A stretch of DNA of 64,000 bases. Origin: Flectonema sp. DT1601. Taxonomy: Eukaryota; Euglenozoa; Diplonemea; Diplonemida; Diplonemidae. Both the position numbers and the translations under genes were made by a program. This document shows, piece after piece, positions 5,717 through 55,205 of the stretch (positions within the stretch are counted from its first letter, which is position 1; every line of letters begins with the position of its first letter). The notes beneath the pieces were generated by a model that was not told the origin of the DNA, ran no database searches, and was given only the letters and a program-made list of their open reading frames with translations. The stretch spans positions 930,001 through 994,000 of the forward strand of contig OZ025784.1 of the NCBI GenBank assembly GCA_964019425.1, given 5' to 3'.

Positions 5717-8700
5717 ATGAGATTACTCAGTCTCTTTATATTGTTATCTAATTATGCGGACGTTATAGCAGCTCCTGTCCCTGCTCCTGTTCCACCTTGC
5801 ACGGCTTCAACTCTGGTTGTGACGGGAAGCACGACTTACGACTGCATGATGACATTGGCACCGACTGTAAACATCCATTGGAACCGTGAAACGAGCGGAA
5901 TGGCTGCGGTTGCGGCGACGACGACGTCGGTCAACGGATGGTTTTCAGTGGCGTTTCCTGATGCTTTGGGTTCGATGATCCCTGCTGTTGGTGTCTCATC
6001 GACCAGTGCGACGGTTGCGGACGTCTTCTCGATTACCGCAAGGAATGCGGGTGGAATCACTTCAACGACGTCGGCAAACATCAACACCCCGACGACTGGG
6101 ATCACGGGTGGCCTGCGTATTCTGAGATTCAACGTCCCTTTTGCATTTTTGACAGCTGCCAAGCCGGTGAACTACGCTCTGCATGCGAGTGAAATGGCGT
6201 TTCCGATGAGCAAACATACCTCAGTAGGAAGTGTGGCAGTGAATTTCTTGGCTCCTGTCCCTGCTCCTGTTCCACCTTGCACGGCTTCAACTCTGGTTGT
6301 GACGGGAAGCACGACTTACGACTGCATGATGGCATTGGCACCGACTGTAAACATCCATTGGAACCGTGAAACGAGCGGAATGGCTGCGGTTGCGGCGACG
6401 ACGACGTCGGTCAACGGATGGTTTTCAGTGGCGTTTCCTGATGCTTTGGGTTCGATGATCCCTGCTGTTGGTGTCTCATCGACCAGTGCGACGGTTGCGG
6501 ACGTCTTCTCGATTACCGCAAGGAATGCGGGTGGAATCACTTCAACGACGTCGGCAAACATCAACACCCCGACGACTGAGATCACGGGTGGCCTGCGTAT
6601 TCTGAGATTCAACGTCCCTTTTGCATTTTTGACAGCTGCCAAGCCGGTGAACTACGCTCTGCATGCGAGTGAAATGGCGTTTCCGATGAGCAAACATACC
6701 TCAGTAGGAAGTGTGGCAGTGAATTTCTTGGCTCCTGTCCCTGCTCCTGTTCCACCTTGCACGGCTTCAACTCTGGTTGTGACGGGAAGCACGACTTACG
6801 ACTGCATGATGGCATTGGCACCGACTGTAAACATCCATTGGAACCGTGAAACGAGCGGAATGGCTGCGGTTGCGGCGACGACGACGTCGGTCAACGGATG
6901 GTTTTCAGTGGCGTTTCCTGATGCTTTGGGTTCGATGATCCCTGCTGTTGGTGTCTCATCGACCAGTGCGACGGTTGCGGACGTCTTCTCGATTACCGCA
7001 AGGAATGCGGGTGGAATCACTTCAACGACGTCGGCAAACATCAACACCCCGACGACTGAGATCACAGGTGGCCTGCGTATTCTGAGATTCAACGTCCCTT
7101 TTGCATTTTTGACAGCTGCCAAGCCGGTGAACTACGCTCTGCATGCGAGTGAAATGGCGTTTCCGATGAGCAAACATACCTCAGTAGGAAGTGTGGCAGT
7201 GAATTTCTTGGCTCCTGTCCCTGCTCCTGTTCCACCTTGCACGGCTTCAACTCTGGTTGTGACGGGAAGCACGACTTACGACTGCATGATGGCATTGGCA
7301 CCGACTGTAAACATCCATTGGAACCGTGAAACGAGCGGAATGGCTGCGGTTGCGGCGACGACGACGTCGGTCAACGGATGGTTTTCAGTGGCGTTTCCTG
7401 ATGCTTTGGGTTCGATGATCCCTGCTGTTGGTGTCTCATCGACCAGTGCGACGGTTGCGGACGTCTTCTCGATTACCGCAAGGAATGCGGGTGGAATCAC
7501 TTCAACGACGTCGGCAAACATCAACACCCCGACGACTGAGATCACGGGTGGCCTGCGTATTCTGAGATTCAACGTCCCTTTTGCATTTTTGACAGCTGCC
7601 AAGCCGGTGAACTACGCTCTGCATGCGAGTGAAATGGCGTTTCCGATGAGCAAACATACCTCAGTAGGAAGTGTGGCAGTGAATTTCTTGGCTCCTGTCC
7701 CTGCTCCTGTTCCACCTTGCACGGCTTCAACTCTGGTTGTGACGGGAAGCACGACTTACGACTGCATGATGGCATTGGCACCGACTGTAAACATCCATTG
7801 GAACCGTGAAACGAGCGGAATGGCTGCGGTTGCGGCGACGACGACGTCGGTCAACGGATGGTTTTCAGTGGCGTTTCCTGATGCTTTGGGTTCGATGATC
7901 CCTGCTGTTGGTGTCTCATCGACCAGTGCGACGGTTGCGGACGTCTTCTCGATTACCGCAAGGAATGCGGGTGGAATCACTTCAACGACGTCGGCAAACA
8001 TCAACACCCCGACGACTGAGATCACGGGTGGCCTGCGTATTCTGAGATTCAACGTCCCTTTTGCATTTTTGACAGCTGCCAAGCCGGTGAACTACGCTCT
8101 GCATGCGAGTGAAATGGCGTTTCCGATGAGCAAACATACCTCAGTAGGAAGTGTGGCAGTGAATTTCTTGGCTCCTGTCCCTGCTCCTGTTCCACCTTGC
8201 ACGGCTTCAACTCTGGTTGTGACGGGAAGCACGACTTACGACTGCATGATGGCATTGGCACCGACTGTAAACATCCATTGGAACCGTGAAACGAGCGGAA
8301 TGGCTGCGGTTGCGGCGACGACGACGTCGGTCAACGGATGGTTTTCAGTGGCGTTTCCTGATGCTTTGGGTTCGATGATCCCTGCTGTTGGTGTCTCATC
8401 GACCAGTGCGACGGTTGCGGACGTCTTCTCGATTACTGCAAGGAATGCGGGTGGAATCACTTCAACGACGTCGGCAAACATCAACACCCCGACGACTGAG
8501 ATCACAGGTGGCCTGCGTATTCTGAGATTCAACGTCCCTTTTGCATTTTTGACAGCTGCCAAGCCGGTGAACTACGCTCTGCATGCGAGTGAAATGGCGT
8601 TTCCGATGAGCAAACATACCTCAGTAGGAAGTGTGGCAGTGAATTTCTTGGCTCCTGTCCCTGCTCCTGTTCCACCTTGCACGGCTTCAACTCTGGTTGT

Positions 8701-11700: not shown

Positions 11701-13135
11701 GATTAATTTTACAGTTGTAGCGGAATTGAGTGATCTTGTTAACCAGATTGATACGTTGGTAGCTGCTGCTGCTACAGCTGTTGGTGGTACTGCTCGTTGT
11801 AGTATGTTGTGTCAAGGTACTAACTGTGTTAATTGTGATGGCACTGCTGTTAATCAAAGATCTGTTTCTACATTAGCCAGAGAAAATTGGAGAGTTGTTT
11901 TTGTCATTCTTAGCGATGCAAATGGAGAAACTCCGCAAGCAACTGTTGACAATGCTTTGAAGGATCTCTTGTCAAGTAATGCGGTCATTGCTTACGTTGA
12001 GGGAAGTGCTGTTGTTGTTGTAGCTGCTGCGAATAATAACAACCGTGCACAGAGATGTTTGCCATCTTCATTCATAAGAGAAGGAACAACAACTTTTGAT
12101 TGCATGATTGAATTATCTGGAACTGTATCTATGCATTGGACTACGGAGTCTAATGGAGCTAATACTCACATTGCCGTAACTGCTTCAGCTGTGTCTGGAT
12201 GGTTGTCAATCGGTTTCCCTGAAGTTGCGGCGTCAATGAGTCCCGCGACAGCCATTACGGGAAGTTCATCAGTTGCCAATGTGTATTCGATTACTGGAAG
12301 AAGTGCTGCTGGAATATCTCAAATCACGTCTGGTAGTTTCAATGGAATTTCAACAGAAGTTGTAAGCAGTCAGCGTATTCTCAGATTCTCAATGCTTAAA
12401 TCATTCTTGAGGAGCAGTATGCCTGTAAACTTTGCTTATCACGTTAGTAGTACAGCATTCCCAGATAGTAATGCTCAGCATACAACTAGGGGATCGGGTA
12501 TTGTGGATCTTCTTACTGGAACATCACAGGTTGTCGTCGTTAACAGTGACTTTGACGATGCTCACACTCACGGAAGGATCATGGTGGCAATATGGGCGTA
12601 CTGGGTTCCTTTGGCAGTTATTATCAAGGTTCTTGGAGCTTTTGTGTGTAAGGGAGAAGTGTTTGGGTATCCAATACCAGTATTCATTCACATGGTCATG
12701 ATGATTATTGCAATGTGTTTAACTACTGTTTTCGCTTCTATTGCCTTGTCAGACTTTGACAACAGAGTGGACTATGGACATAGAGAACTTGGTGTTACTT
12801 TGTTAGCGATTGGTTGGATTCAAATTTTGAGTGGTATCATAAGGCCAAGCAAGGAATCTGGATACAGAAAGTACTGGGGATGGGGACACGTTCTGTTTGG
12901 TATTTCAGTTGTGGTAATTTCAATCGCTCAAATGGCGACTGGAGTTGAAAATATTAATCGCCTATTCACAAATGACTCGGAGGGGGTTAAGATTGCGATG
13001 ATCGTTGGAGTGGTCACCATGGGTGTTATTTATATTAGCGGAAAGGTTTATGCCGTTGTTATTAAAAATGAAGACGTGATTGCGATTTCAGAAAACAACG
13101 GGGGTAAATCCAATGGTCCTGATCATGAGGCGTAA
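5717..13135 (+). CDS. Giant 12-module DOMON / cytochrome b561 protein (array gene 2)
   Basis: This 2472-aa intron-free ORF encodes a signal peptide (about 1-18) and twelve tandem 160-aa DOMON units (19-1938) joined by short APVPAPVPP linkers. A TPPP-rich stalk (about 1939-1993), the small Cys-cluster domain (about 1995-2110), a divergent DOMON (about 2112-2268) and a b561 domain (about 2271-2448, five predicted helices, four conserved His) follow. Every unit keeps two Cys (CTAS and YDCMM), likely a disulfide, plus Met in GSMIPAV and His in KHTSVGS as probable heme ligands. If all sites fill, the protein holds about 13 DOMON hemes and two b561 hemes. It is predicted to sit in the plasma membrane with the modules outside. 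FRRS1-type relatives usually have one DOMON, so the size is exceptional. Function as a surface electron conduit is inferred. Confidence 0.9.
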   Translation: MRLLSLFILLSNYADVIAAPVPAPVPPCTASTLVVTGSTTYDCMMTLAPTVNIHWNRETSGMAAVAATTTSVNGWFSVAFPDALGSMIPAVGVSSTSATVADVFSITARNAGGITSTTSANINTPTTGITGGLRILRFNVPFAFLTAAKPVNYALHASEMAFPMSKHTSVGSVAVNFLAPVPAPVPPCTASTLVVTGSTTYDCMMALAPTVNIHWNRETSGMAAVAATTTSVNGWFSVAFPDALGSMIPAVGVSSTSATVADVFSITARNAGGITSTTSANINTPTTEITGGLRILRFNVPFAFLTAAKPVNYALHASEMAFPMSKHTSVGSVAVNFLAPVPAPVPPCTASTLVVTGSTTYDCMMALAPTVNIHWNRETSGMAAVAATTTSVNGWFSVAFPDALGSMIPAVGVSSTSATVADVFSITARNAGGITSTTSANINTPTTEITGGLRILRFNVPFAFLTAAKPVNYALHASEMAFPMSKHTSVGSVAVNFLAPVPAPVPPCTASTLVVTGSTTYDCMMALAPTVNIHWNRETSGMAAVAATTTSVNGWFSVAFPDALGSMIPAVGVSSTSATVADVFSITARNAGGITSTTSANINTPTTEITGGLRILRFNVPFAFLTAAKPVNYALHASEMAFPMSKHTSVGSVAVNFLAPVPAPVPPCTASTLVVTGSTTYDCMMALAPTVNIHWNRETSGMAAVAATTTSVNGWFSVAFPDALGSMIPAVGVSSTSATVADVFSITARNAGGITSTTSANINTPTTEITGGLRILRFNVPFAFLTAAKPVNYALHASEMAFPMSKHTSVGSVAVNFLAPVPAPVPPCTASTLVVTGSTTYDCMMALAPTVNIHWNRETSGMAAVAATTTSVNGWFSVAFPDALGSMIPAVGVSSTSATVADVFSITARNAGGITSTTSANINTPTTEITGGLRILRFNVPFAFLTAAKPVNYALHASEMAFPMSKHTSVGSVAVNFLAPVPAPVPPCTASTLVVTGSTTYDCMMALAPTVNIHWNRETSGMAAVAATTTSVNGWFSVAFPDALGSMIPAVGVSSTSATVADVFSITARNAGGITSTTSANINTPTTEITGGLRILRFNVPFAFLTAAQPVNYALHASEMAFPMSKHTSVGSVAVNFLAPVPAPVPPCTASTLVVTGSTTYDCMMALAPTVNIHWNRETSGMAAVAATTTSVNGWFSVAFPDALGSMIPAVGVSSTSATVADVFSITARNAGGITSTTSANINTPTTEITGGLRILRFNVPFAFLTAAKPVNYALHASEMAFPMSKHTSVGSVAVNFLAPVPAPVPPCTASTLVVTGSTTYDCMMALAPTVNIHWNRETSGMAAVAATTTSVNGWFSVAFPDALGSMIPAVGVSSTSATVADVFSITARNAGGITSTTSANINTPTTEITGGLRILRFNVPFAFLTAAKPVNYALHASEMAFPMSKHTSVGSVAVNFLAPVPAPVPPCTASTLVVTGSTTYDCMMALAPTVNIHWNRETSGMAAVAATTTSVNGWFSVAFPDALGSMIPAVGVSSTSATVADVFSITARNAGGITSTTSANINTPTTEITGGLRILRFNVPFAFLTAAKPVNYALHASEMAFPMSKHTSVGSVAVNFLAPVPAPVPPCTASTLVVTGSTTYDCMMALAPTVNIHWNRETSGMAAVAATTTSVNGWFSVAFPDALGSMIPAVGVSSTSATVADVFSITARNAGGITSTTSANINTPTTEITGGLRILRFNVPFAFLTAAKPVNYALHASEMAFPMSKHTSVGSVAVNFLAPVPAPVPPCTASTLVVTGSTTYDCMMALAPTVNIHWNRETSGMAAVAATTTSVNGWFSVAFPDALGSMIPAVGVSSTSATVADVFSITARNAGGITSTTSANINTPTTEITGGLRILRFNVPFAFLTAAKPVNYALHASEMAFPMSKHTSVGSVAVNFLAPVPSMPATPPPTPPPTPLPTPPPTPPPTPPPTPPPTPPPTPPPTPPPVTSPPADDTINFTVVAELSDLVNQIDTLVAAAATAVGGTARCSMLCQGTNCVNCDGTAVNQRSVSTLARENWRVVFVILSDANGETPQATVDNALKDLLSSNAVIAYVEGSAVVVVAAANNNNRAQRCLPSSFIREGTTTFDCMIELSGTVSMHWTTESNGANTHIAVTASAVSGWLSIGFPEVAASMSPATAITGSSSVANVYSITGRSAAGISQITSGSFNGISTEVVSSQRILRFSMLKSFLRSSMPVNFAYHVSSTAFPDSNAQHTTRGSGIVDLLTGTSQVVVVNSDFDDAHTHGRIMVAIWAYWVPLAVIIKVLGAFVCKGEVFGYPIPVFIHMVMMIIAMCLTTVFASIALSDFDNRVDYGHRELGVTLLAIGWIQILSGIIRPSKESGYRKYWGWGHVLFGISVVVISIAQMATGVENINRLFTNDSEGVKIAMIVGVVTMGVIYISGKVYAVVIKNEDVIAISENNGGKSNGPDHEA
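5771..11530 (+). repeat. 12 x 480-bp tandem DOMON repeat array
   Basis: Twelve head-to-tail copies of exactly 480 bp fill this interval with no indels. Only scattered substitutions separate them, for example one Lys-to-Gln change in unit 7, one Gly in place of Glu in unit 1, and a few silent changes. Near identity without length variation points to recent amplification or continuing homogenisation. The linker is APVPAPVPP, unlike the TPPP linkers of genes 3 and 4. Confidence 0.95.
12529..13038 (+). repeat. b561-coding segment shared almost identically by all four array genes
   Basis: This segment matches 2309-2816 of gene 1 and the equivalent parts of genes 3 and 4 (about 24127-24636 and 39513-40022). 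Only one or two substitutions are visible, around the 'cgcctattcac' site. Identity with gene 1 ends sharply at both edges, where the flanking coding sequence is clearly diverged. It spans the b561 transmembrane core. Confidence 0.85.
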
Positions 13136-14554: not shown

Positions 14555-17500
14555 ATGAGATTACTCAGTCTCTTTATATTGTTATCCTATTATGCGGACG
14601 TTACAGCTGCTCCTGCTCCGACTCCACCACCTACGCCGCCACCAGCAACTTCTGCTCCATCTTGCACGGCTTCAACTCTGGTTGTGACGGGAAGCACGAC
14701 TTACGACTGCATGATGACATTGGCAGGGACTGTAATCATCCATTGGAACCGTGAAACGAGCGGAATGGCTGCGGTTGCGGCGACGACGACGTCGGTCAAC
14801 GGATGGTTTTCAGTGGCGTTTCCTGATGCTTTGGGTTCGATGATCCCTGCTGTTGGTGTCTCATCGACCAGTGCGACGGCTGCGAACGTCTTCTCGATTA
14901 CCGCAAGGAATGCGGGTGGAATCACTACAACGACGTCGGCAAACATCAACACCCCGACGACTGAGATCACAGGTGGCCTGCGTATTCTGAGATTCAACGT
15001 CCCTTTTGCATTTTTGACAGCTGCCCAGCCGGTGAACTACGCTCTGCATGCGAGTGAAATGGCATTTCCAGTGAGCGTACATACCGCGCGTGGAAGCGTG
15101 GCAGTAGATTTTGTGGTCGGAACGGCTGCTCCTGCGCCGACTCCACCACCAACTCCACCACCTACACCGCCACCTGCAACCCCTGCTCCATCTTGTACAG
15201 CTTCAACTCTGGTTGTGACGGGAAGCACGACTTACGACTGCATGATGACATTGGCAGGGACTGTAATCATCCATTGGAACCGTGAAACGAGCGGAATGGC
15301 TGCGGTTGCGGCGACGACGACGTCGGTCAACGGATGGTTTTCAGTGGCGTTTCCTGATGCTTTGGGTTCGATGATCTCTGCTGTTGGTGTCTCATCGACC
15401 AGTGCGACGGCTGCGAACATCTTCTCGATTACTGCAAGGAATGCGGGTGGAATCACTACGACGACGTCGGCAAACATCAACACCCCGACGACTGAGATCA
15501 CAGGTGGCCTGCGTATTCTGAGATTCAACGTCCCTTTTGCATTTTTGACAGCTGCCCAGCCGGTGAACTACGCTCTGCATGCGAGTGAAATGGCATTTCC
15601 AGTGAGCGTTCATACCGCGCGTGGAAGCGTGGCAGTAGATTTTGTGGTCGGAACGGCTGCTCCTGCGCCGACTCCACCACCAACTCCACCACCTACACCG
15701 CCACCTGCAACTCCTGCTCCATCTTGTACAGCTTCAACTCTGGTTGTGACGGGAAGCACGACTTACGACTGCATGATGACATTGGCAGGGACTGTAATCA
15801 TCCATTGGAACCGTGAAACGAGCGGAATGGCTGCGGTTGCGGCGACGACGACGTCGGTCAACGGATGGTTTTCAGTGGCGTTTCCTGATGCTTTGGGTTC
15901 GATGATCCCTGCTGTTGGTGTCTCATCGACCAGTGCGACGGCTGCGAACATCTTCTCGATTACCGCAAGGAATGCGGGTGGAATCACTACAACGACGTCG
16001 GCAAACATCAACACCCCGACGACTGAGATCACAGGTGGCCTGCGTATTCTGAGATTCAACGTCCCTTTTGCATTTTTGACAGCTGCCCAGCCGGTGAACT
16101 ACGCTCTGCATGCGAGTGAAATGGCATTTCCAGTGAGCGTTCATACCGCGCGTGGAAGCGTGGCAGTAGATTTTGTGGTCGGAACGGCTGCTCCTGCGCC
16201 GACTCCACCACCAACTCCACCACCTACACCGCCACCTGCAACCCCTGCTCCATCTTGTACAGCTTCAACTCTGGTTGTGACGGGAAGCACGACTTACGAC
16301 TGCATGATGACATTGGCAGGGACTGTAATCATCCATTGGAACCGTGAAACGAGCGGAATGGCTGCGGTTGCGGCGACGACGACGTCGGTCAACGGATGGT
16401 TTTCAGTGGCGTTTCCTGATGCTTTGGGTTCGATGATCCCTGCTGTTGGTGTCTCATCGACCAGTGCGACGGCTGCGAACATCTTCTCGATTACTGCAAG
16501 GAATGCGGGTGGAATCACTACGACGACGTCGGCAAACATCAACACCCCGACGACTGAGATCACAGGTGGCCTGCGTATTCTGAGATTCAACGTCCCTTTT
16601 GCATTTTTGACAGCTGCCCAGCCGGTGAACTACGCTCTGCATGCGAGTGAAATGGCATTTCCAGTGAGCGTTCATACCGCGCGTGGAAGCGTGGCAGTAG
16701 ATTTTGTGGTCGGAACGGCTGCTCCTGCGCCGACTCCACCACCAACTCCACCACCTACACCGCCACCTGCAACCCCTGCTCCATCTTGTACAGCTTCAAC
16801 TCTGGTTGTGACGGGAAGCACGACTTACGACTGCATGATGACATTGGCAGGGACTGTAATCATCCATTGGAACCGTGAAACGAGCGGAATGGCTGCGGTT
16901 GCGGCGACGACGACGTCGGTCAACGGATGGTTTTCAGTGGCGTTTCCTGATGCTTTGGGTTCGATGATCCCTGCTGTTGGTGTCTCATCGACCAGTGCGA
17001 CGGCTGCGAACATCTTCTCGATTACTGCAAGGAATGCGGGTGGAATCACTACGACGACGTCGGCAAACATCAACACCCCGACGACTGAGATCACAGGTGG
17101 CCTGCGTATTCTGAGATTCAACGTCCCTTTTGCATTTTTGACAGCTGCCCAGCCGGTGAACTACGCTCTGCATGCGAGTGAAATGGCATTTCCAGTGAGC
17201 GTTCATACCGCGCGTGGAAGCGTGGCAGTAGATTTTGTGGTCGGAACGGCTGCTCCTGCGCCGACTCCACCACCAACTCCACCACCTACACCGCCACCTG
17301 CAACCCCTGCTCCATCTTGTACAGCTTCAACTCTGGTTGTGACGGGAAGCACGACTTACGACTGCATGATGACATTGGCAGGGACTGTAATCATCCATTG
17401 GAACCGTGAAACGAGCGGAATGGCTGCGGTTGCGGCGACGACGACGTCGGTCAACGGATGGTTTTCAGTGGCGTTTCCTGATGCTTTGGGTTCGATGATC

Positions 17501-25483: not shown

Positions 25484-25493
25484 TTGCCCGAAT

Positions 25494-25526
<33 letters not shown>

Positions 25527-25621
25527 CCTCGTTAGTATTAACGAAAAAAGAAGAAAAAAAAAAATAATTTGAAATCGTTGAAACAATAAACAATTAAAAA
25601 AAAAAAAAAAAAATCGGGCAA
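25484..25621. repeat. Foldback element with 8-bp perfect terminal inverted repeats, copy A
   Basis: The ends are TTGCCCGA and TCGGGCAA, perfect inverted repeats. Just inside are a T-run of nearly 30 and an A-run of about 20, and the middle has a second perfect hairpin (tcgtta-gtat-taacga). The 138-bp stretch could fold into a long hairpin with a T:A stem. It resembles a very short MITE or foldback element, or an accidental cruciform. No clear target-site duplication was seen. Confidence 0.55.
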
Positions 25622-26835: not shown

Positions 26836-27009
26836 CTCTTTACGTGACTCGTCTGGTCTTTCTGCTCTCGATATCTACTTCTCGTTGACATCTTGAGTAC
26901 ATATTTCTTTAGATACTCACGCACTTAGTTCAATTCGGAAATTAACTTAAATTCCTTTCCCTTAAGTAACTTTATTATAATTCACATCCTCAACAGTTAT
27001 ATTTAAACT
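26836..27009 (+). promoter_or_regulatory. Conserved 5' flank and 5' UTR of DOMON gene 4
   Basis: This is almost identical to the flank of gene 3. The acceptor-like AG (cctcaacag) ends at 26996, 13 nt before the ATG. Having the same block before genes 2, 3 and 4 predicts coordinated expression, which is an inference. Confidence 0.5.
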
Positions 27010-30000: not shown

Positions 30001-33000
30001 TTCTCGATTACCGCAAGGAATGCGGGTGGAATCACTACAACGACGTCGGCAAACATCAACACCCCGACGACTGAGATCACAGGTGGCCTGCGTATTCTGA
30101 GATTCAACGTCCCTTTTGCATTTTTGACAGCTGCCCAGCCGGTGAACTACGCTCTGCATGCGAGTGAAATGGCATTTCCGGTGAGCGTTCATACCGCGCG
30201 TGGAAGCGTGGCAGTAGATTTTGTGGTCGGAACGGCTGCTCCTGCGCCGACTCCACCACCAACTCCACCACCTACACCGCCACCAGCAACTCCTGCTCCA
30301 TCTTGTACAGCTTCAACTCTGGTTGTGACGGGAAGCACGACTTACGACTGCATGATGACATTGGCAGGGACTGTAATCATCCATTGGAACCGTGAAACGA
30401 GCGGAATGGCTGCGGTTGCGGCGACGACGACGTCGGTCAACGGATGGTTTTCAGTGGCGTTTCCTGATGCTTTGGGTTCGATGATCCCTGCTGTTGGTGT
30501 CTCATCGACCAGTGCGACGGCTGCGAACATCTTCTCGATTACTGCAAGGAATGCGGGTGGAATCACTACAACGACGTCGGCAAACATCAACACCCCGACG
30601 ACTGAGATCACAGGTGGCATGCGTATTCTGAGATTTAACGTCCCTTTTGCATTTTTGACAGCTGCCCAGCCGGTGAACTACGCTCTGCATGCGAGTGAAA
30701 TGGCATTTCCAGTGAGCGTTCATACCGCGCGTGGAAGCGTGGCAGTAGATTTTGTGGTCGGAACGGCTGCTCCTGCGCCGACTCCACCACCAACTCCACC
30801 ACCTACACCGCCACCAGCAACTCCTGCTCCATCTTGTACAGCTTCAACTCTGGTTGTGACGGGAAGCACGACTTACGACTGCATGATGACATTGGCAGGG
30901 ACTGTAATCATCCATTGGAACCGTGAAACGAGCGGAATGGCTGCGGTTGCGGCGACGACGACGTCGGTCAACGGATGGTTTTCAGTGGCGTTTCCTGATG
31001 CTTTGGGTTCGATGATCCCTGCTGTTGGTGTCTCATCGACCAGTGCGACGGCTGCGAACATCTTCTCGATTACTGCAAGGAATGCGGGTGGAATCACTAC
31101 GACGACGTCGGCAAACATCAACACCCCGACGACTGAGATCACAGGTGGCCTGCGTATTCTGAGATTCAACGTCCCTTTTGCATTTTTGACAGCTGCCCAG
31201 CCGGTGAACTACGCTCTGCATGCGAGTGAAATGGCATTTCCAGTGAGCGTTCATACCGCGCGTGGAAGCGTGGCAGTAGATTTTGTGGTCGGGACGGCTG
31301 CTCCTGCGCCGACTCCACCACCAACTCCACCACCAACTCCACCGCCAACACCACCACCTACACCGCCACCTGCAACCCCTGCTCCATCTTGCACGGCTTC
31401 AACTCTAGTTGTGACGGGAAGCACGACTTACGACTGCATGATGACATTGGCAGGGACTGTAATCATCCATTGGAACCGTGAAACGAGCGGAATGGCTGCG
31501 GTTGCGGCGACGACGACGTCGGTCAACGGATGGTTTTCAGTGGCGTTTCCTGATGCTTTGGGTTCGATGATCCCTGCTGTTGGTGTCTCATCGACCAGTG
31601 CGACGGCTGCGAACGTCTTCTCGATTACCGCAAGGAATGCGGGTGGAATCACTACAACGACGTCGGCAAACATCAACACCCCGACGACTGAGATCACAGG
31701 TGGCCTGCGTATTCTGAGATTCAACGTCCCTTTTGCATTTTTGACAGCTGCCCAGCCGGTGAACTACGCTCTGCATGCGAGTGAAATGGCATTTCCAGTG
31801 AGCGTTCATACCGCGCGTGGAAGCGTGGCAGTAGATTTTGTGGTCGGAACGGCTGCTCCTGCGCCGACTCCACCACCAACTCCACCACCTACACCGCCAC
31901 CTGCAACCCCTGCTCCATCTTGCACGGCTTCAACTCTGGTTGTGACGGGAAGCACGACTTACGACTGCATGATGACATTGGCAGGGACTGTAATCATCCA
32001 TTGGAACCGTGAAACGAGCGGAATGGCTGCGGTTGCGGCGACGACGACGTCGGTCAACGGATGGTTTTCAGTGGCGTTTCCTGATGCTTTGGGTTCGATG
32101 ATCCCTGCTGTTGGTGTCTCATCAACCAGTGCGACGGCTGCGAACATCTTCTCGATTACCGCAAGGAATGCGGGTGGAATCACTACAACGACGTCGGCAA
32201 ACATCAACACCCCGACGACTGAGATCACAGGTGGCCTGCGTATTCTGAGATTCAACGTCCCTTTTGCATTTTTGACAGCTGCCCAGCCGGTGAACTACGC
32301 TCTGCATGCGAGTGAAATGGCATTTCCAGTGAGCGTTCATACCGCGCGTGGAAGCGTGGCAGTAGATTTTGTGGTCGGAACGGCTGCTCCTGCGCCGACT
32401 CCACCACCAACTCCACCACCTACACCGCCACCTGCAACCCCTGCTCCATCTTGCACTGCTTCAACTCTGGTTGTGACGGGAAGCACGACTTACGACTGCA
32501 TGATGACATTGGCAGGGACTGTAATCATCCATTGGAACCGTGAAACGAGCGGAATGGCTGCGGTTGCGGCGACGACGACGTCGGTCAACGGATGGTTTTC
32601 AGTGGCGTTTCCTGATGCTTTGGGTTCGATGATCCCTGCTGTTGGTGTCTCATCGACCAGTGCGACGGCTGCGAACATCTTCTCGATTACTGCAAGGAAT
32701 GCGGGTGGAATCACTACGACGACGTCGGCAAACATCAACACCCCGACGACTGAGATCACAGGTGGCCTGCGTATTCTGAGATTCAACGTCCCTTTTGCAT
32801 TTTTGACAGCTGCCCAGCCGGTGAACTACGCTCTGCATGCGAGTGAAATGGCATTTCCAGTGAGCGTTCATACCGCGCGTGGAAGCGTGGCAGTAGATTT
32901 TGTGGTCGGGACGGCTGCTCCTGCGCCAACTCCACCACCAACTCCACCACCTACACCGCCACCTGCAACCCCTGCTCCATCTTGTACAGCTTCAACTTTG

Positions 33001-36000
33001 GTTGTGACGGGAAGCACGACTTACGACTGCATGATGACATTGGCAGGGACTGTAATCATCCATTGGAACCGTGAAACGAGCGGAATGGCTGCGGTTGCGG
33101 CGACGACGACGTCGGTCAACGGATGGTTTTCAGTGGCGTTTCCTGATGCTTTGGGTTCGATGATCCCTGCTGTTGGTGTCTCATCGACCAGTGCGACGGC
33201 TGCGAACATCTTCTCGATTACCGCAAGGAATGCGGGTGGAATCACTACAACGACGTCGGCAAACATCAACACCCCGACGACTGAGATCACAGGTGGCCTG
33301 CGTATTCTGAGATTCAACGTCCCTTTTGCATTTTTGACAGCTGCCCAGCCGGTGAACTACGCTCTGCATGCGAGTGAAATGGCATTTCCAGTGAGCGTTC
33401 ATACCGCGCGTGGAAGCGTGGCAGTAGATTTTGTGGTCGGGACGGCTGCTCCTGCGCCGACTCCACCACCAACTCCACCACCAACTCCACCACCTACACC
33501 GCCACCTGCAACCCCTGCTCCATCTTGCACGGCTTCAACTCTAGTTGTGACGGGAAGCACGACTTACGACTGCATGATGACATTGGCAGGGACTGTAATC
33601 ATCCATTGGAACCGTGAAACGAGCGGAATGGCTGCGGTTGCGGCGACGACGACGTCGGTCAACGGATGGTTTTCAGTGGCGTTTCCTGATGCTTTGGGTT
33701 CGATGATCCCTGCTGTTGGTGTCTCATCGACCAGTGCGACGGCTGCGAACATCTTCTCGATTACCGCAAGGAATGCGGGTGGAATCACTACAACGACGTC
33801 GGCAAACATCAACACCCCGACGACTGAGATCACAGGTGGCCTGCGTATTCTGAGATTCAACGTCCCTTTTGCATTTTTGACAGCTGCCCAGCCGGTGAAC
33901 TACGCTCTGCATGCGAGTGAAATGGCATTTCCAGTGAGCGTTCATACCGCGCGTGGAAGCGTGGCAGTAGATTTTGTGGTCGGGACGGCTGCTCCTGCGC
34001 CAACTCCACCACCAACTCCACCACCAACTCCACCACCAACTCCACCACCAACTCCACCACCTACACCGCCACCTGCAACCCCTGCTCCATCTTGCACGGC
34101 TTCAACTCTAGTTGTGACGGGAAGCACGACTTACGACTGCATGATGACATTAGCAGGGACTGTAATCATCCATTGGAACCGTGAAACGAGCGGAATGGCT
34201 GCGGTTGCGGCGACGACGACGTCGGTCAACGGATGGTTTTCAGTGGCGTTTCCTGATGCTTTGGGTTCGATGATCCCTGCTGTTGGTGTCTCATCGACCA
34301 GTGCGACGGCTGCGAACATCTTCTCGATTACTGCAAGGAATGCGGGTGGAATCACTACAACGACGTCGGCAAACATCAACACCCCGACGACTGAGATCAC
34401 AGGTGGCCTGCGTATTCTGAGATTCAACGTCCCTTTTGCATTTTTGACAGCTGCCCAGCCGGTGAACTACGCTCTGCATGCGAGTGAAATGGCATTTCCA
34501 GTGAGCGTTCATACCGCGCGTGGAAGCGTGGCAGTAGATTTTGTGGTCGGGACGGCTGCTCCTGCGCCGACTCCACCACCAACTCCACCACCAACTCCAC
34601 CGCCAACACCACCACCTACACCGCCACCTGCAACCCCTGCTCCATCTTGCACGGCTTCAACTCTAGTTGTGACGGGAAGCACGACTTACGACTGCATGAT
34701 GACATTAGCAGGGACTGTAATCATCCATTGGAACCGTGAAACGAGCGGAATGGCTGCGGTTGCGGCGACGACGACGTCGGTCAACGGATGGTTTTCAGTG
34801 GCGTTTCCTGATGCTTTGGGTTCGATGATCCCTGCTGTTGGTGTCTCATCGACCAGTGCGACGGCTGCGAACATCTTCTCGATTACTGCAAGGAATGCGG
34901 GTGGAATCACTACGACGACGTCGGCAAACATCAACACCCCGACGACTGAGATCACAGGTGGCCTGCGTATTCTGAGATTCAACGTCCCTTTTGCATTTTT
35001 GACAGCTGCCCAGCCGGTGAACTACGCTCTGCATGCGAGTGAAATGGCATTTCCAGTGAGCGTTCATACCGCGCGTGGAAGCGTGGCAGTAGATTTTGTG
35101 GTCGGGACGGCTGCTCCTGCGCCGACTCCACCACCAACTCCACCACCAACTCCACCACCAACTCCACCACCTACACCGCCACCTGCAACCCCTGCTCCAT
35201 CTTGCACGGCTTCAACTCTAGTTGTGACAGGAAGCACGACTTACGACTGCATGATGACATTAGCAGGGACTGTAATCATCCATTGGAACCGTGAAACGAG
35301 CGGAATGGCTGCGGTTGCGGCGACGACGACGTCGGTCAACGGATGGTTTTCAGTGGCGTTTCCTGATGCTTTGGGTTCGATGATCCCTGCTGTTGGTGTC
35401 TCATCGACCAGTGCGACGTCTGCGAACATCTTTTCGATTACTGCAAGGAATGCGGGTGGAATCACTACGACGACGTCGGCAAACATCAACACCCCGACGA
35501 CTGAGATCACGGGTGGCCTGCGTATTCTGAGATTCAACGTCCCTTTTGCATTTTTGACAGCTGCCCAGCCGGTGAACTACGCTCTGCATGCGAGTGAAAT
35601 GGCATTTCCAGTGAGCGTTCATACCGCGCGTGGAAGCGTGGCAGTAGATTTTGTGGTCGGGACGGCTGCTCCTGCGCCGACTCCACCACCAACTCCACCA
35701 CCAACTCCACCGCCAACACCACCACCTACACCGCCACCTGCAACCCCTGCTCCATCTTGCACGGCTTCAACTCTAGTTGTGACGGGAAGCACGACTTACG
35801 ACTGCATGATGACATTAGCAGGGACTGTAATCATCCATTGGAACCGTGAAACGAGCGGAATGGCTGCGGTTGCGGCGACGACGACGTCGGTCAACGGATG
35901 GTTTTCAGTGGCGTTTCCTGATGCTCTGGGTTCGATGATCCCTGCTGTTGGTGTCTCATCGACCAGTGCGACGGCTGCGAACATCTTCTCGATTACTGCA

Positions 36001-39000
36001 AGGAATGCGGGTGGAATCACTACGACGACGTCGGCAAACATCAACACCCCGACGACTGAGATCACAGGTGGCCTGCGTATTCTGAGATTTAACGTCCCTT
36101 TTGCATTTTTGACAGCTGCCCAGCCGGTGAACTACGCTCTGCATGCGAGTGAAATGGCATTTCCAGTGAGCGTTCATACCGCGCGTGGAAGCGTGGCAGT
36201 AGATTTTGTGGTCGGGACGGCTGCTCCTGCGCCGACTCCACCACCAACTCCACCACCAACTCCACCACCTACACCGCCACCTGCAACCCCTGCTCCATCT
36301 TGCACGGCTTCAACTCTAGTTGTGACGGGAAGCACGACTTACGACTGCATGATGACATTGGCAGGGACTGTAATCATCCATTGGAACCGTGAAACGAGCG
36401 GAATGGCTGCGGTTGCGGCGACGACGACGTCGGTCAACGGATGGTTTTCAGTGGCGTTTCCTGATGCTTTGGGTTCGATGATCCCTGCTGTTGGTGTCTC
36501 ATCGACCAGTGCGACGGCTGCGAACATCTTCTCGATTACCGCAAGGAATGCGGGTGGAATCACTACAACGACGTCGGCAAACATCAACACCCCGACGACT
36601 GAGATCACAGGTGGCCTGCGTATTCTGAGATTCAACGTCCCTTTTGCATTTTTGACAGCTGCCCAGCCGGTGAACTACGCTCTGCATGCGAGTGAAATGG
36701 CATTTCCAGTGAGCGTTCATACCGCGCGTGGAAGCGTGGCAGTAGATTTTGTGGTCGGGACGGCTGCTCCTGCGCCAACTCCACCACCAACTCCACCGCC
36801 AACTCCACCACCAACTCCACCACCAACTCCACCACCAACTCCACCACCAACTCCACCACCTACACCGCCACCTGCAACCCCTGCTCCATCTTGCACGGCT
36901 TCAACTCTAGTTGTGACGGGAAGCACGACTTACGACTGCATGATGACATTGGCAGGGACTGTAATCATCCATTGGAACCGTGAAACGAGCGGAATGGCTG
37001 CGGTTGCGGCGACGACGACGTCGGTCAACGGATGGTTTTCAGTGGCGTTTCCTGATGCTTTGGGTTCGATGATCCCTGCTGTTGGTGTCTCATCGACCAG
37101 TGCGACGGCTGCGAACATCTTCTCGATTACTGCAAGGAATGCGGGTGGAATCACTACGACGACGTCGGCAAACATCAACACCCCGACGACTGAGATCACA
37201 GGTGGCCTGCGTATTCTGAGATTCAACGTCCCTTTTGCATTTTTGACAGCTGCCCAGCCGGTGAACTACGCTCTGCATGCGAGTGAAATGGCATTTCCAG
37301 TGAGCGTTCATACCGCGCGTGGAAGCGTGGCAGTAGATTTTGTGGTCGGGACGGCTGCTCCTGCGCCGACTCCACCACCAACTCCACCACCAACTCCACC
37401 ACCAACTCCACCACCAACTCCACCACCTACACCGCCACCTGCAACCCCTGCTCCATCTTGCACGGCTTCAACTCTGGTTGTGACGGGAAGCACGACTTAC
37501 GACTGCATGATGACATTGGCAGGGACTGTAATCATCCATTGGAACCGTGAAACGAGCGGAATGGCTGCGGTTGCGGCGACGACGACGTCGGTCAACGGAT
37601 GGTTTTCAGTGGCGTTTCCTGATGCTTTGGGTTCGATGATCCCTGCTGTTGGTGTCTCATCGACCAGTGCGACGGCTGCGAACGTCTTCTCGATTACCGC
37701 AAGGAATGCGGGTGGAATCACTACAACGACGTCGGCAAACATCAACACCCCGACGACTGAGATCACAGGTGGCCTGCGTATTCTGAGATTCAACGTCCCT
37801 TTTGCATTTTTGACAGCTGCCCAGCCGGTGAACTACGCTCTGCATGCGAGTGAAATGGCATTTCCAGTGAGCGTACATACCGCGCGTGGAAGCGTGGCAG
37901 TAGATTTTGTGGTCGGAACGGCTGCTCCTGCGCCAACTCCACCACCAACTCCACCGCCAACTCCACCACCAACTCCACCACCAACTCCACCACCTACACC
38001 GCCACCTGCAACTCCTGCTCCATCTTGCACGGCTTCAACTCTGGTTGTTACGGGAAGCACGACTTACGACTGCATGATGACATTGGCAGGGACTGTAATC
38101 ATCCATTGGAACCGTGAAACGAGCGGAATGGCTGCGGTTGCGGCGACGACGACGTCGGTCAACGGATGGTTTTCAGTGGCGTTTCCTGATGCTTTGGGTT
38201 CGATGATCCCTGCTGTTGGTGTCTCATCGACCAGTGCGACGGCTGCGAACGTCTTCTCGATTACCGCAAGGAATGTGGGTGGAATCACTACAACGATGTC
38301 GGCAAACATCAACACCCCGACGACTGAGATCACAGGTGGCCTGCGTATTCTGAGATTCAACGTCCCTTTTGCATTTTTGACAGCTGCCCAGCCGGTGAAC
38401 TACGCTCTGCATGCGAGTGAAATGGCATTTCCAGTGAGCGTTCATACCGCGCGTGGAAGCGTGGCAGTAGATTTTGTGGGTGGGACTGCTGCTCCTGCGC
38501 CAACACCACCACCAACTCCACCGCCTACTCCACCGCCAACACCACCACCAACTCCGCCGCCTACTCCACCACCAACACCACCACCGACTCCGCCGCCAAC
38601 TCCGCCGCCTACTCCACCGCCAACACCGCCACCAACTCCACCACCTACGCCGCCTCCTGTTACGAGCCCTCCAGCTGATGACACGATTAATTTTACAGTT
38701 GTAGCGGAATTGAGTGATCTTGTTAACCAGATTGATACGTTGGTAGCTGCTGCTGCTACAGCTGTCGGTGGTACTGCTCGTTGTAGTATGTTGTGTCAAG
38801 GTACTAACTGTGTTAATTGTGATGGCACTGCTGTTAATCAAAGATCTGTTTCTACATTAGCCAGAGAAAATTGGAGAGTTGTTTTTGTCATTCTTAGCGA
38901 TGCAAATGGAGAAACTCCGCAAGCAACTGTTGACAATGCTTTGAAGGATCTCTTGTCAAGTAATGCGGTCATTGCTTACGTTGAGGGAAGTGCTGTTGTT

Positions 39001-40119
39001 GTTGTAGCTGCTGCGAATAATAACAACCGTGCACAGAGATGTTTGCCATCTTCATTCATAAGAGAAGGAACAACAACTTTTGATTGCATGATTGAATTAT
39101 CTGGAACTGTATCTATGCATTGGACTACGGAGTCTAATGGAGCTAATACTCACATTGCCGTAACTGCTTCAGCTGTGTCTGGATGGTTGTCAATCGGTTT
39201 CCCTGAAGTTGCGGCGTCAATGAGTCCCGCGACAGCCATTACGGGAAGTTCATCAGTTGCCAATGTGTATTCGATTACTGGAAGAAGTGCTGCTGGAATA
39301 TCTCAAATCACGTCTGGTAGTTTCAATGGAATTTCAACAGAAGTTGTAAGCAGTCAGCGTATTCTCAGATTCTCAATGCTTAAATCATTCTTGAGGAGCA
39401 GTATGCCTGTAAACTTTGCTTATCACGTTAGTAGTACAGCATTCCCAGATAGTAATGCTCAGCATACAACTAGGGGATCGGGTATTGTGGATCTTCTTAC
39501 TGGAACATCACAGGTTGTCGTCGTTAACAGTGACTTTGACGATGCTCACACTCACGGAAGGATCATGGTGGCAATATGGGCGTACTGGGTTCCTTTGGCA
39601 GTTATTATCAAGGTTCTTGGAGCTTTTGTGTGTAAGGGAGAAGTGTTTGGGTATCCAATACCAGTATTCATTCACATGGTCATGATGATTATTGCAATGT
39701 GTTTAACTACTGTTTTCGCTTCTATTGCCTTGTCAGACTTTGACAACAGAGTGGACTATGGACATAGAGAACTTGGTGTTACTTTGTTAGCGATTGGTTG
39801 GATTCAAATTTTGAGTGGTATCATAAGGCCAAGCAAGGAATCTGGATACAGAAAGTACTGGGGATGGGGACACGTTCTGTTTGGTATTTCAGTTGTGGTA
39901 ATTTCAATCGCTCAAATGGCGACTGGAGTTGAAAATATTAATCGTCTATTCACAAATGACTCGGAGGGGGTTAAGATTGCGATGATCGTTGGAGTGGTCA
40001 CCATGGGTGTTATTTATATTAGCGGAAAGGTTTATGCCGTTGTTATTAAAAATGAAGACGTGATTGCGATTTCAGAAAACAACGGGGGTAAATCCAATGG
40101 TCCTGATCATGAAGCGTGA
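27010..40119 (+). CDS. Giant 21-module DOMON / cytochrome b561 protein (array gene 4)
   Basis: At 4369 aa this is the largest protein in the window. It has a signal peptide (about 1-19), twenty-one DOMON units (about 37-3823), a TPPP stalk, the Cys-cluster domain, a divergent DOMON with Met (AASMSPA) and His (QHTTRGSG), and a C-terminal b561 domain with five predicted helices. Linkers between the first eight units have a constant length. After unit 8 they vary from three to eight TPPP repeats, always in 12-bp steps that keep the frame. All units keep the paired Cys, the Met and the His, giving about 22 DOMON hemes plus two b561 hemes if fully loaded. The rigid-looking PT linkers would string the modules out from the membrane. 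No intron or frame break was seen. Function is inferred from family membership. Confidence 0.9.
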   Translation: MRLLSLFILLSYYADVTAAPAPTPPPTPPPATPAPSCTASTLVVTGSTTYDCMMTLAGTVIIHWNRETSGMAAVAATTTSVNGWFSVAFPDALGSMIPAVGVSSTSATAANIFSITARNAGGITTTTSANINTPTTEITGGLRILRFNVPFAFLTAAQPVNYALHASEMAFPVSVHTARGSVAVDFVVGTAAPAPTPPPTPPPTPPPATPAPSCTASTLVVTGSTTYDCMMTLAGTVIIHWNRETSGMAAVAATTTSVNGWFSVAFPDALGSMIPAVGVSSTSATVANIFSITARNAGGITTTTSANINTPTTEITGGMRILRFNVPFAFLTAAQPVNYALHASEMAFPVSVHTARGSVAVDFVVGTAAPAPTPPPTPPPTPPPATPAPSCTASTLVVTGSTTYDCMMTLAGTVIIHWNRETSGMAAVAATTTSVNGWFSVAFPDALGSMIPAVGVSSTSATAANIFSITARNAGGITTTTSANINTPTTEITGGLRILRFNVPFAFLTAAQPVNYALHASEMAFPVSVHTARGSVAVDFVVGTAAPAPTPPPTPPPTPPPATPAPSCTASTLVVTGSTTYDCMMTLAGTVIIHWNRETSGMAAVAATTTSVNGWFSVAFPDALGSMIPAVGVSSTSATAANIFSITARNAGGITTTTSANINTPTTEITGGLRILRFNVPFAFLTAAQPVNYALHASEMAFPVSVHTARGSVAVDFVVGTAAPAPTPPPTPPPTPPPATPAPSCTASTLVVTGSTTYDCMMTLAGTVIIHWNRETSGMAAVAATTTSVNGWFSVAFPDALGSMIPAVGVSSTSATAANIFSITARNAGGITTTTSANINTPTTEITGGMRILRFNVPFAFLTAAQPVNYALHASEMAFPVSVHTARGSVAVDFVVGTAAPAPTPPPTPPPTPPPATPAPSCTASTLVVTGSTTYDCMMTLAGTVIIHWNRETSGMAAVAATTTSVNGWFSVAFPDALGSMIPAVGVSSTSATAANIFSITARNAGGITTTTSANINTPTTEITGGLRILRFNVPFAFLTAAQPVNYALHASEMAFPVSVHTARGSVAVDFVVGTAAPAPTPPPTPPPTPPPATPAPSCTASTLVVTGSTTYDCMMTLAGTVIIHWNRETSGMAAVAATTTSVNGWFSVAFPDALGSMIPAVGVSSTSATAANIFSITARNAGGITTTTSANINTPTTEITGGMRILRFNVPFAFLTAAQPVNYALHASEMAFPVSVHTARGSVAVDFVVGTAAPAPTPPPTPPPTPPPATPAPSCTASTLVVTGSTTYDCMMTLAGTVIIHWNRETSGMAAVAATTTSVNGWFSVAFPDALGSMIPAVGVSSTSATAANIFSITARNAGGITTTTSANINTPTTEITGGLRILRFNVPFAFLTAAQPVNYALHASEMAFPVSVHTARGSVAVDFVVGTAAPAPTPPPTPPPTPPPTPPPTPPPATPAPSCTASTLVVTGSTTYDCMMTLAGTVIIHWNRETSGMAAVAATTTSVNGWFSVAFPDALGSMIPAVGVSSTSATAANVFSITARNAGGITTTTSANINTPTTEITGGLRILRFNVPFAFLTAAQPVNYALHASEMAFPVSVHTARGSVAVDFVVGTAAPAPTPPPTPPPTPPPATPAPSCTASTLVVTGSTTYDCMMTLAGTVIIHWNRETSGMAAVAATTTSVNGWFSVAFPDALGSMIPAVGVSSTSATAANIFSITARNAGGITTTTSANINTPTTEITGGLRILRFNVPFAFLTAAQPVNYALHASEMAFPVSVHTARGSVAVDFVVGTAAPAPTPPPTPPPTPPPATPAPSCTASTLVVTGSTTYDCMMTLAGTVIIHWNRETSGMAAVAATTTSVNGWFSVAFPDALGSMIPAVGVSSTSATAANIFSITARNAGGITTTTSANINTPTTEITGGLRILRFNVPFAFLTAAQPVNYALHASEMAFPVSVHTARGSVAVDFVVGTAAPAPTPPPTPPPTPPPATPAPSCTASTLVVTGSTTYDCMMTLAGTVIIHWNRETSGMAAVAATTTSVNGWFSVAFPDALGSMIPAVGVSSTSATAANIFSITARNAGGITTTTSANINTPTTEITGGLRILRFNVPFAFLTAAQPVNYALHASEMAFPVSVHTARGSVAVDFVVGTAAPAPTPPPTPPPTPPPTPPPATPAPSCTASTLVVTGSTTYDCMMTLAGTVIIHWNRETSGMAAVAATTTSVNGWFSVAFPDALGSMIPAVGVSSTSATAANIFSITARNAGGITTTTSANINTPTTEITGGLRILRFNVPFAFLTAAQPVNYALHASEMAFPVSVHTARGSVAVDFVVGTAAPAPTPPPTPPPTPPPTPPPTPPPTPPPATPAPSCTASTLVVTGSTTYDCMMTLAGTVIIHWNRETSGMAAVAATTTSVNGWFSVAFPDALGSMIPAVGVSSTSATAANIFSITARNAGGITTTTSANINTPTTEITGGLRILRFNVPFAFLTAAQPVNYALHASEMAFPVSVHTARGSVAVDFVVGTAAPAPTPPPTPPPTPPPTPPPTPPPATPAPSCTASTLVVTGSTTYDCMMTLAGTVIIHWNRETSGMAAVAATTTSVNGWFSVAFPDALGSMIPAVGVSSTSATAANIFSITARNAGGITTTTSANINTPTTEITGGLRILRFNVPFAFLTAAQPVNYALHASEMAFPVSVHTARGSVAVDFVVGTAAPAPTPPPTPPPTPPPTPPPTPPPATPAPSCTASTLVVTGSTTYDCMMTLAGTVIIHWNRETSGMAAVAATTTSVNGWFSVAFPDALGSMIPAVGVSSTSATSANIFSITARNAGGITTTTSANINTPTTEITGGLRILRFNVPFAFLTAAQPVNYALHASEMAFPVSVHTARGSVAVDFVVGTAAPAPTPPPTPPPTPPPTPPPTPPPATPAPSCTASTLVVTGSTTYDCMMTLAGTVIIHWNRETSGMAAVAATTTSVNGWFSVAFPDALGSMIPAVGVSSTSATAANIFSITARNAGGITTTTSANINTPTTEITGGLRILRFNVPFAFLTAAQPVNYALHASEMAFPVSVHTARGSVAVDFVVGTAAPAPTPPPTPPPTPPPTPPPATPAPSCTASTLVVTGSTTYDCMMTLAGTVIIHWNRETSGMAAVAATTTSVNGWFSVAFPDALGSMIPAVGVSSTSATAANIFSITARNAGGITTTTSANINTPTTEITGGLRILRFNVPFAFLTAAQPVNYALHASEMAFPVSVHTARGSVAVDFVVGTAAPAPTPPPTPPPTPPPTPPPTPPPTPPPTPPPTPPPATPAPSCTASTLVVTGSTTYDCMMTLAGTVIIHWNRETSGMAAVAATTTSVNGWFSVAFPDALGSMIPAVGVSSTSATAANIFSITARNAGGITTTTSANINTPTTEITGGLRILRFNVPFAFLTAAQPVNYALHASEMAFPVSVHTARGSVAVDFVVGTAAPAPTPPPTPPPTPPPTPPPTPPPTPPPATPAPSCTASTLVVTGSTTYDCMMTLAGTVIIHWNRETSGMAAVAATTTSVNGWFSVAFPDALGSMIPAVGVSSTSATAANVFSITARNAGGITTTTSANINTPTTEITGGLRILRFNVPFAFLTAAQPVNYALHASEMAFPVSVHTARGSVAVDFVVGTAAPAPTPPPTPPPTPPPTPPPTPPPTPPPATPAPSCTASTLVVTGSTTYDCMMTLAGTVIIHWNRETSGMAAVAATTTSVNGWFSVAFPDALGSMIPAVGVSSTSATAANVFSITARNVGGITTTMSANINTPTTEITGGLRILRFNVPFAFLTAAQPVNYALHASEMAFPVSVHTARGSVAVDFVGGTAAPAPTPPPTPPPTPPPTPPPTPPPTPPPTPPPTPPPTPPPTPPPTPPPTPPPTPPPVTSPPADDTINFTVVAELSDLVNQIDTLVAAAATAVGGTARCSMLCQGTNCVNCDGTAVNQRSVSTLARENWRVVFVILSDANGETPQATVDNALKDLLSSNAVIAYVEGSAVVVVAAANNNNRAQRCLPSSFIREGTTTFDCMIELSGTVSMHWTTESNGANTHIAVTASAVSGWLSIGFPEVAASMSPATAITGSSSVANVYSITGRSAAGISQITSGSFNGISTEVVSSQRILRFSMLKSFLRSSMPVNFAYHVSSTAFPDSNAQHTTRGSGIVDLLTGTSQVVVVNSDFDDAHTHGRIMVAIWAYWVPLAVIIKVLGAFVCKGEVFGYPIPVFIHMVMMIIAMCLTTVFASIALSDFDNRVDYGHRELGVTLLAIGWIQILSGIIRPSKESGYRKYWGWGHVLFGISVVVISIAQMATGVENINRLFTNDSEGVKIAMIVGVVTMGVIYISGKVYAVVIKNEDVIAISENNGGKSNGPDHEA
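27118..38480 (+). repeat. 21-unit DOMON array with variable TPPP linkers
   Basis: Spacing is 531 bp for units 1-8, then 555, 531, 531, 531, 543, 567, 555, 555, 555, 543, 591, 567 and 567 bp. All differences are multiples of 12 bp. A Leu-to-Met variant (gcatgcgt with the following tttaac) marks units 2, 5 and 7 only. The units are otherwise nearly identical to one another and to those of gene 3. Confidence 0.9.
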
Positions 40120-55078: not shown

Positions 55079-55205
55079 TTAGATATCGATTTTTAGAACT
55101 TTTTTTTTTATTTTTTTTAAATATTCAAATTCAACAACTATGGTAACCCTTTTCTTTTCCTTCATTACAGTAAGTGCAAAAAAAAAAAAAATAATAATAA
55201 TAAAG

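Follow-up and report, generated by a model that had tools for sequence, protein, structure and literature searches.

Giant CYBDOM-type proteins with 12 to 21 tandem DOMON units in the diplonemid Flectonema sp. DT1601: a possible surface redox brush rather than a wire

Results

Four tandem genes of one DOMON/cytochrome b561 family

The window analyzed here, a whole stretch of 64,000 nucleotides from Flectonema sp. DT1601 (assembly GCA_964019425.1, contig OZ025784.1, positions 930,001 to 994,000), hosts four tandem plus-strand genes of one family, three of which encode giant proteins built from tandem DOMON units and a cytochrome b561 domain. Genes 2-4 are open, single-frame open reading frames (ORFs); gene 1 lies outside the span 5717..40119 that a first, sequence-only reading had singled out. 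The composition proposed there for genes 2-4, namely 12, 16 and 21 units plus a membrane-proximal DOMON and b561, was borne out by motif and profile, which agree on 1, 12, 16 and 21 distal units in genes 1-4 (for genes 2-4 the profile count takes in the proximal DOMON as well, giving 13, 17 and 22). The domain order in genes 2-4 is array, Pro/Thr stalk, Cys domain, proximal DOMON and b561, with the following coordinates within the window:

854..2914, +, gene 1, 686 aa
911-1363, +, gene 1 single DOMON unit (motif and profile)
1964-2281, +, gene 1 Cys-bearing juxtamembrane domain
2342-2911, +, gene 1 b561
5717..13135, +, gene 2 whole ORF, 2472 aa
5798..11530, +, gene 2 array of 12 DOMON units with 10-aa LAPVPAPVPP linkers (motif and profile)
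11705..12022, +, gene 2 juxtamembrane Cys domain (CxxxCxxxxCxxC), without Pfam family
12056..12514, +, gene 2 membrane-proximal DOMON, assigned partly via the identical gene 4 copy
12563..13132, +, gene 2 b561, starting at the HTHG motif (five predicted helices, four invariant His)
14555..24733, +, gene 3 whole ORF, 3392 aa
14663..23092, +, gene 3 array of 16 DOMON units with 26-30 aa Pro/Thr linkers (motif and profile)
23303..23620, +, gene 3 juxtamembrane Cys domain
23654..24112, +, gene 3 membrane-proximal DOMON (profile)
24161..24730, +, gene 3 b561 (Pfam match below cut-off)
27010..40119, +, gene 4 whole ORF, 4369 aa
27118..38478, +, gene 4 array of 21 DOMON units with 26-46 aa Pro/Thr linkers (motif and profile)
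38689..39006, +, gene 4 juxtamembrane Cys domain
39040..39498, +, gene 4 membrane-proximal DOMON (profile)
39547..40116, +, gene 4 b561 (Pfam match below cut-off)

Gene 1 has a long Pro/Thr stalk and lacks the proximal DOMON. All four proteins start with a signal-like M-R-[LV]-L-S-L-F stretch, recognized by eye; in the hydropathy analysis of genes 1, 2 and 4, the N-terminal peak was above the threshold in genes 1 and 2 and below it in gene 4. The proteins are probably located at the cell surface. Thirteen bases ahead of each ATG (854, 5717, 14555, 27010) a conserved CAACAG is found, a likely trans-splice acceptor.

Identity of the repeat units

In the four window proteins no Pfam DOMON match was obtained at E<=1 and b561 was matched only below the cut-off, such a cut-off being a detection threshold and not a structural definition of a DOMON. 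A search of the genome (89.5 Mb, 92 contigs) gave 56 DOMON matches, none of them inside the window. Among 28 divergent units that were aligned, 11 matched PF03351 at E<=1 (best 4e-11), the first window unit remaining unmatched. An iterated profile built on the window units reached Pfam-positive relatives at E<1e-4, and the transcript P0008 matched PF03351 with 60.9 bits. Structure prediction of two tandem units (mean pLDDT 83, pTM 0.49, 18 sequences) yielded a beta-sandwich as in solved DOMON domains; this model was nearest to the dopamine beta-hydroxylase DOMON and the pyranose dehydrogenase heme-b domain, well above unrelated entries, and Foldseek by itself also ranked dopamine beta-hydroxylase at the top. 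Sequence-only searches of the PDB returned no significant DOMON structure (best DOMON 4zel, E 1.2), and the unit profile alone gave no alignment with cellobiose dehydrogenase (CDH). With a broader DOMON profile, the conserved Met fell on CDH Met65 at 19-31% probability; the profile fragment stops one residue short of CDH His163, so that the register of the His is implied. Taken together, the profiles, the predicted structure and the existence of relatives that exceed the Pfam cut-off point to the repeat units being DOMONs. Other Pfam matches within the arrays (Gp53-like, ATPgrasp_Ter, CsgC, herpes US8A and others), several of them above cut-off, were discarded as summed, repeat-driven noise; taken singly, a window unit scores below the cut-off of the Gp53-like family.

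Conservation of the putative heme ligands

Each unit of genes 2-4 carries a GSM[IV][PS]A and a [KV]HT site, the proximal DOMONs carrying ASMSPA and QHTT instead. The Met and His highlighted by the sequence-only reading are thus present throughout, but their presence in every unit is not independent evidence, because the repeats of any one gene hardly differ: at the protein level, 10 of 12 units in gene 2, 12 of 16 in gene 3 and 14 of 21 in gene 4 are identical. The weight is carried by the divergent units. In their alignment, which has 6 fully invariant columns out of 151, Met60 is kept in 28/28 and His140 in 27/28; the one deviating unit has a His two positions further upstream. Over a set of 58 distinct units, the Met is present in all 58 and the His in register in 44; in each of the other 14, gaps shift the register and a His lies a few positions upstream. 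Within a second family of DOMON arrays (contigs C16 and C37), Met and His are both kept in 16/16 units, 7 of the 10 C16 units being distinct. This conservation over divergent units is far stronger evidence than repetition inside one array. From the positions of the ligand pair, the units are probably of the heme-b binding type (AA8/AIR12). His27 is invariant as well; going by its spacing only, it is similar to a conserved HYP1 His, which was judged too distant for heme binding (PMC10784544).

The b561 core and the juxtamembrane region

The four b561 His columns, described as complete in the sequence-only reading, proved invariant in all 16 C-termini of the chosen alignment (which omits two short C5 paralogues, 888620 and 895554), and each of these His lies on a separate predicted helix of the gene 2 model. 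Five hydrophobic peaks were found in the b561 part of genes 1, 2 and 4, five helices are predicted for gene 2, and the modeled transmembrane core fold is that of 5zle and 4o6y. Only 17 aa separate the end of the proximal DOMON from the start of b561 in genes 2-4, as in CYBDOM reductases; a DOMON directly adjoining b561 in one chain is found in genes 2-4 and not in gene 1. This proximal pair matches the known three-heme relay. Between stalk and relay, the juxtamembrane domain shows a CxxxCxxxxCxxC pattern invariant in six aligned copies and has no Pfam family. A SEA domain, considered here because of a GSVVV-like motif, was not supported by Pfam or the PDB, the fold search barely covering that part.

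These conserved residues bear on an alternative explanation, in which the proteins would be adhesin- or mucin-like stalks with b561 as anchor or local reductase, the DOMON and Pro/Thr repeats acting as spacers or as modules binding prey, surfaces or the cell coat, and their length being under selection. Met and His are kept in strongly divergent units and in the C16/C37 arrays, although they would be needless for simple spacers, and the four b561 His are kept as well. We regard such a stalk as possible, but on balance rather unlikely.

Repeat evolution and assembly

The gene 2 array repeats with a period of 480 bp (12 copies, 99%). Sequence sharing extends beyond the arrays: the DNA of the proximal DOMON is the same in genes 2-4, genes 1 and 2 share 513 bases of b561 coding sequence at 99.6% identity, and 3 kb comprising the end and downstream sequence of genes 3 and 4 are 99.2% identical. 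Counted over approximately 115 synonymous and 334 nonsynonymous sites, unit pairs differ on average by 4.3 synonymous versus 0.9 nonsynonymous changes in gene 4, 2.5 versus 0.7 in gene 3 and 0.9 versus 0.5 in gene 2. Given the 480-bp periodicity in gene 2 and the synonymous excess, the arrays are not a product of chance. At the DNA level, 20 of 21 units in gene 4, 11 of 16 in gene 3 and 6 of 12 in gene 2 are distinct, which speaks against copies arising from assembly error, the exact unit numbers depending on the assembly. A second assembly of genes 1-4 was not among the matches listed in the protein-database searches; neighbors on contig C5 were, at 100%.

Spacing of the units and the question of a conduit

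The sequence-only reading had proposed a polyheme b-type conduit, in which the distal hemes would relay electrons along the string to distant acceptors. Several observations are in favor of it, i.e., the full set of ligand residues, a proximal relay adjoining b561, the short 10-aa linkers of gene 2 and the number of possible hemes, which, if every site were loaded, would amount to 15, 19 and 24 for genes 2, 3 and 4, as had been estimated before. The spacing argues against it. LAPVPAPVPP fills all 11 gaps between the units of gene 2, and Pro-rich linkers of 26-30 aa and 26-46 aa fill the 15 and 20 gaps of genes 3 and 4 (one residue longer in genes 3 and 4 in a second count with a different unit boundary). 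Extended polyproline measures 0.31 nm per residue, at which value the extended linkers span approximately 3 nm in gene 2, 8-10 nm in gene 3 and 8-15 nm in gene 4, and the Pro/Thr stalk of 58-70 aa between array and Cys domain 18-22 nm. The array is hence separated from the redox anchor by this stalk plus another domain. Since electron tunneling requires approximately 14 A or less, extended linkers and stalk would exceed its range and fixed heme-to-heme tunneling along the array is not expected; by this argument from length, electrons would be passed only if chains fold back or collide. No CXXCH motif was found in any of the four window proteins. What stands of the proposal is the fit of proximal DOMON and b561 to a three-heme relay, the Met/His pair and the predicted DOMON fold; a continuous electrical wire is unlikely, and we consider the conduit as a whole improbable.

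Independent variation of both modules in the genome

A search of the genome with gene 1 found at least 31 places reaching the b561 part. Among 21 family ORFs, including the window genes, the number of DOMONs is zero in four, one in three, two in one, three in six, four in two, five in one and ten in one, besides 13, 17 and 22 in genes 2-4. The zero-DOMON ORFs have the same b561 anchor, here with stalks that reach 2,695 Pro-rich positions; a signal peptide is not visible in the C17 member, and one C48 member is incomplete in the sequence piece read. All 12 places on contig C48 match gene 1 from the stalk onward only. A b561 gene array lies there at 725-800 kb (loci L027 and L028). In the three frames read, which measure at most 3032 aa, the outer part is a PPTEPVVS-type repeat without DOMONs. 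Gene 2 is the only one to show a proximal DOMON among 10 aligned Cys-domain C-termini. The reverse case is found at C16:991701-997790 (minus strand, locus L029), where ten tandem DOMONs (PF03351, 10 stretches, 250.6 bits) are encoded with no b561 match and with one C-terminal hydrophobic stretch, seen by eye. Since b561 occurs without arrays and an array without b561, neither module needs the other, and both vary independently in one genome. The four DOMON-free ORFs and the nine C-termini lacking the proximal DOMON further weigh against a conduit.

Additional loci encode related domains. At C37:203-213 kb (locus L030), tandem DOMON units are set on very long PTAVPT stalks; in the frame 208473-212540, the C-terminal part, which matches no Pfam family at E<=0.01, has several hydrophobic stretches. 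Two short family frames on C5 (888620-889861 and 895554-896801; 414 and 416 aa), in which the b561 match ends before the fourth His, suggest degenerate or spliced genes. One ORF at C57:168959-172750 (minus strand, locus L026) combines DOMON (26.4 bits, below cut-off), b561 (27.2 bits), cytochrome b5 (70 bits) and nucleotide cyclase (94.8 bits) and is a candidate transmembrane redox-controlled cyclase.

Heme supply, spliced leader and neighboring genes

Tandem heme-type DOMONs also exist without b561, as on C16, which would suit surface arrays taking up or storing heme from prey or water. As AA8 domains illustrate, however, a Met/His site is more characteristic of electron transfer than of heme capture. 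In kinetoplastids heme synthesis is often missing, and the limited 2016 data on Diplonema papillatum showed none (PMC4870792). ALAD, UROD and ferrochelatase, the three heme enzymes searched for, all gave nearly full-length matches in the present genome; heme auxotrophy was rejected on this basis, and the organism probably makes its own heme. Heme capture or storage is the least probable of the explanations considered here. LPMO_10, the LPMO family searched for with regard to possible partners, had no match in the genome.

The pattern CAGTTTCTGTACTWTATTG, which we take to be the Diplonema leader and on which assumption the diplonemid reading of the leader is based, occurs in 718 genome copies versus none for the reversed control. 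Many copies form arrays spaced 610 or 623 bases, and one array piece contains five 5S rRNA genes 610 bases apart; no U2 match was found in 3 kb of leader array scanned. Four dispersed copies are preceded by ACCAACGATTCTAAAGCTA. Leader copies and 5S linkage fit a euglenozoan spliced leader; this linkage is reported, together with U2, from D. papillatum and, for leader and 5S, also from euglenids and kinetoplastids (PMC10161547). The single dispersed leader copies (L031-L034), each with a different sequence after it, are possibly retroposed mRNAs.

Further along the window, genes for a myosin head protein (42299-45778), an HPP transmembrane protein (47658-48302), an ATP-dependent DNA ligase domain protein (48926-51361) and a PqiA-like protein (55140-59348) were noted.

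Discussion

The closest known design is that of the CYBDOM proteins (plant HYP1/CRR, animal SDR2/FRRS1, insect CG8399), which likewise place an extracellular Met/His DOMON beside a four-His b561. The HYP1 spacing H54/M90/H174 resembles H27/M60/H140 of the window units. The CYBDOMs described in the literature consulted carry one or two DOMONs, whereas genes 2-4 add 12-21 distal units, a Cys domain and a Pro/Thr stalk. The AA8 heme-b domains of cellobiose and pyranose dehydrogenases (1d7b, 4qi3, 6jt6) share the fold, with the Met position given by a low-probability profile alignment; AA8 occurs as a single secreted domain joined to a flavin or PQQ enzyme and is not known in tandem. Dcytb and plant cytochrome b561 (5zle, 4o6y) share the transmembrane core fold and the His set and, to our knowledge, have no DOMON. 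With bacterial MtrCAB and OmcS, the sole parallel is the concept of a surface protein carrying many hemes: the bacterial proteins hold close-packed c-type hemes at CXXCH motifs, whereas the window proteins have no CXXCH and units spaced by Pro-rich linkers.

Protein-database searches, each scoring approximately 8,000 candidates of limited length, and thus not implying absence elsewhere, led back in part to the same genome: P0001, P0002, P0003, P0005 and P0121 are 100% identical to its loci and P0004 95%. Further family members are P0006, P0007, P0009 and P0125-P0132, and the remaining matches, apart from P0008, were Pro/Thr-rich noise. P0008, with best genome matches of 64-77% identity, probably derives from another species; at C56:757-776 kb, six tandem 737-aa frames are near-equal matches to its DOMON part. 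Literature searches on DOMON plus b561, CYBDOM, heme DOMONs of stramenopiles, kinetoplastid DOMONs and DOMONs in extracellular electron transfer, with full texts largely outside their reach, turned up no such tandem-array protein among the entries listed, and no paper linking diplonemids with b561. As a system, genes 2-4 represent an expanded, modular variant of CYBDOM. The DOMON plus b561 ferric-reductase design is already known; the expansion to 12-21 units is real and unusual.

Based on architecture, predicted DOMON and b561 folds, conserved ligands, family expansion and the demonstrated independence of the modules, we favor, with a probability of roughly 0.5, a reading of genes 2-4 as giant CYBDOM-type plasma-membrane proteins, in which a redox anchor bears a length-variable brush of probable heme beads that are not wired to it. 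Within this reading, the loading with heme, the redox activity and surface location of the proteins, the direction in which electrons flow and the stiffness and purpose of the brush are inferred. Together with the membrane-proximal DOMON, the b561 core would form an ordinary three-heme relay, passing electrons from a cytosolic donor to outside acceptors such as ferric or cupric ions; known CYBDOMs use ascorbate as donor. The 12-21 distal DOMONs would probably be heme-b beads on Pro/Thr strings with no fixed-distance wiring to the relay, exchanging electrons only via tethered contact or soluble mediators, and the brush may also bind or adhere. The anatomy is better matched by such a tethered redox brush, or by an adhesive stalk bearing heme-type beads, than by a polyheme conduit, which is a possible but unproven reading. 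A stronger version, with fully heme-loaded arrays forming a dense, b561-fed surface that delivers electrons over tens to hundreds of nm by tethered collisional hopping, appears doubtful to us, somewhat less so than the conduit; if true, bacterial polyheme surfaces would have a eukaryotic counterpart that is modular and of b-type.

With up to 22 heme-type DOMONs and a b561 core, these proteins hold the largest such set among the sequences searched. If heme-loaded, they would provide a test case for extended redox surfaces in eukaryotes and for selection on the repeat number of a redox module, a question that the two-way separation of both modules within one genome opens to comparison.
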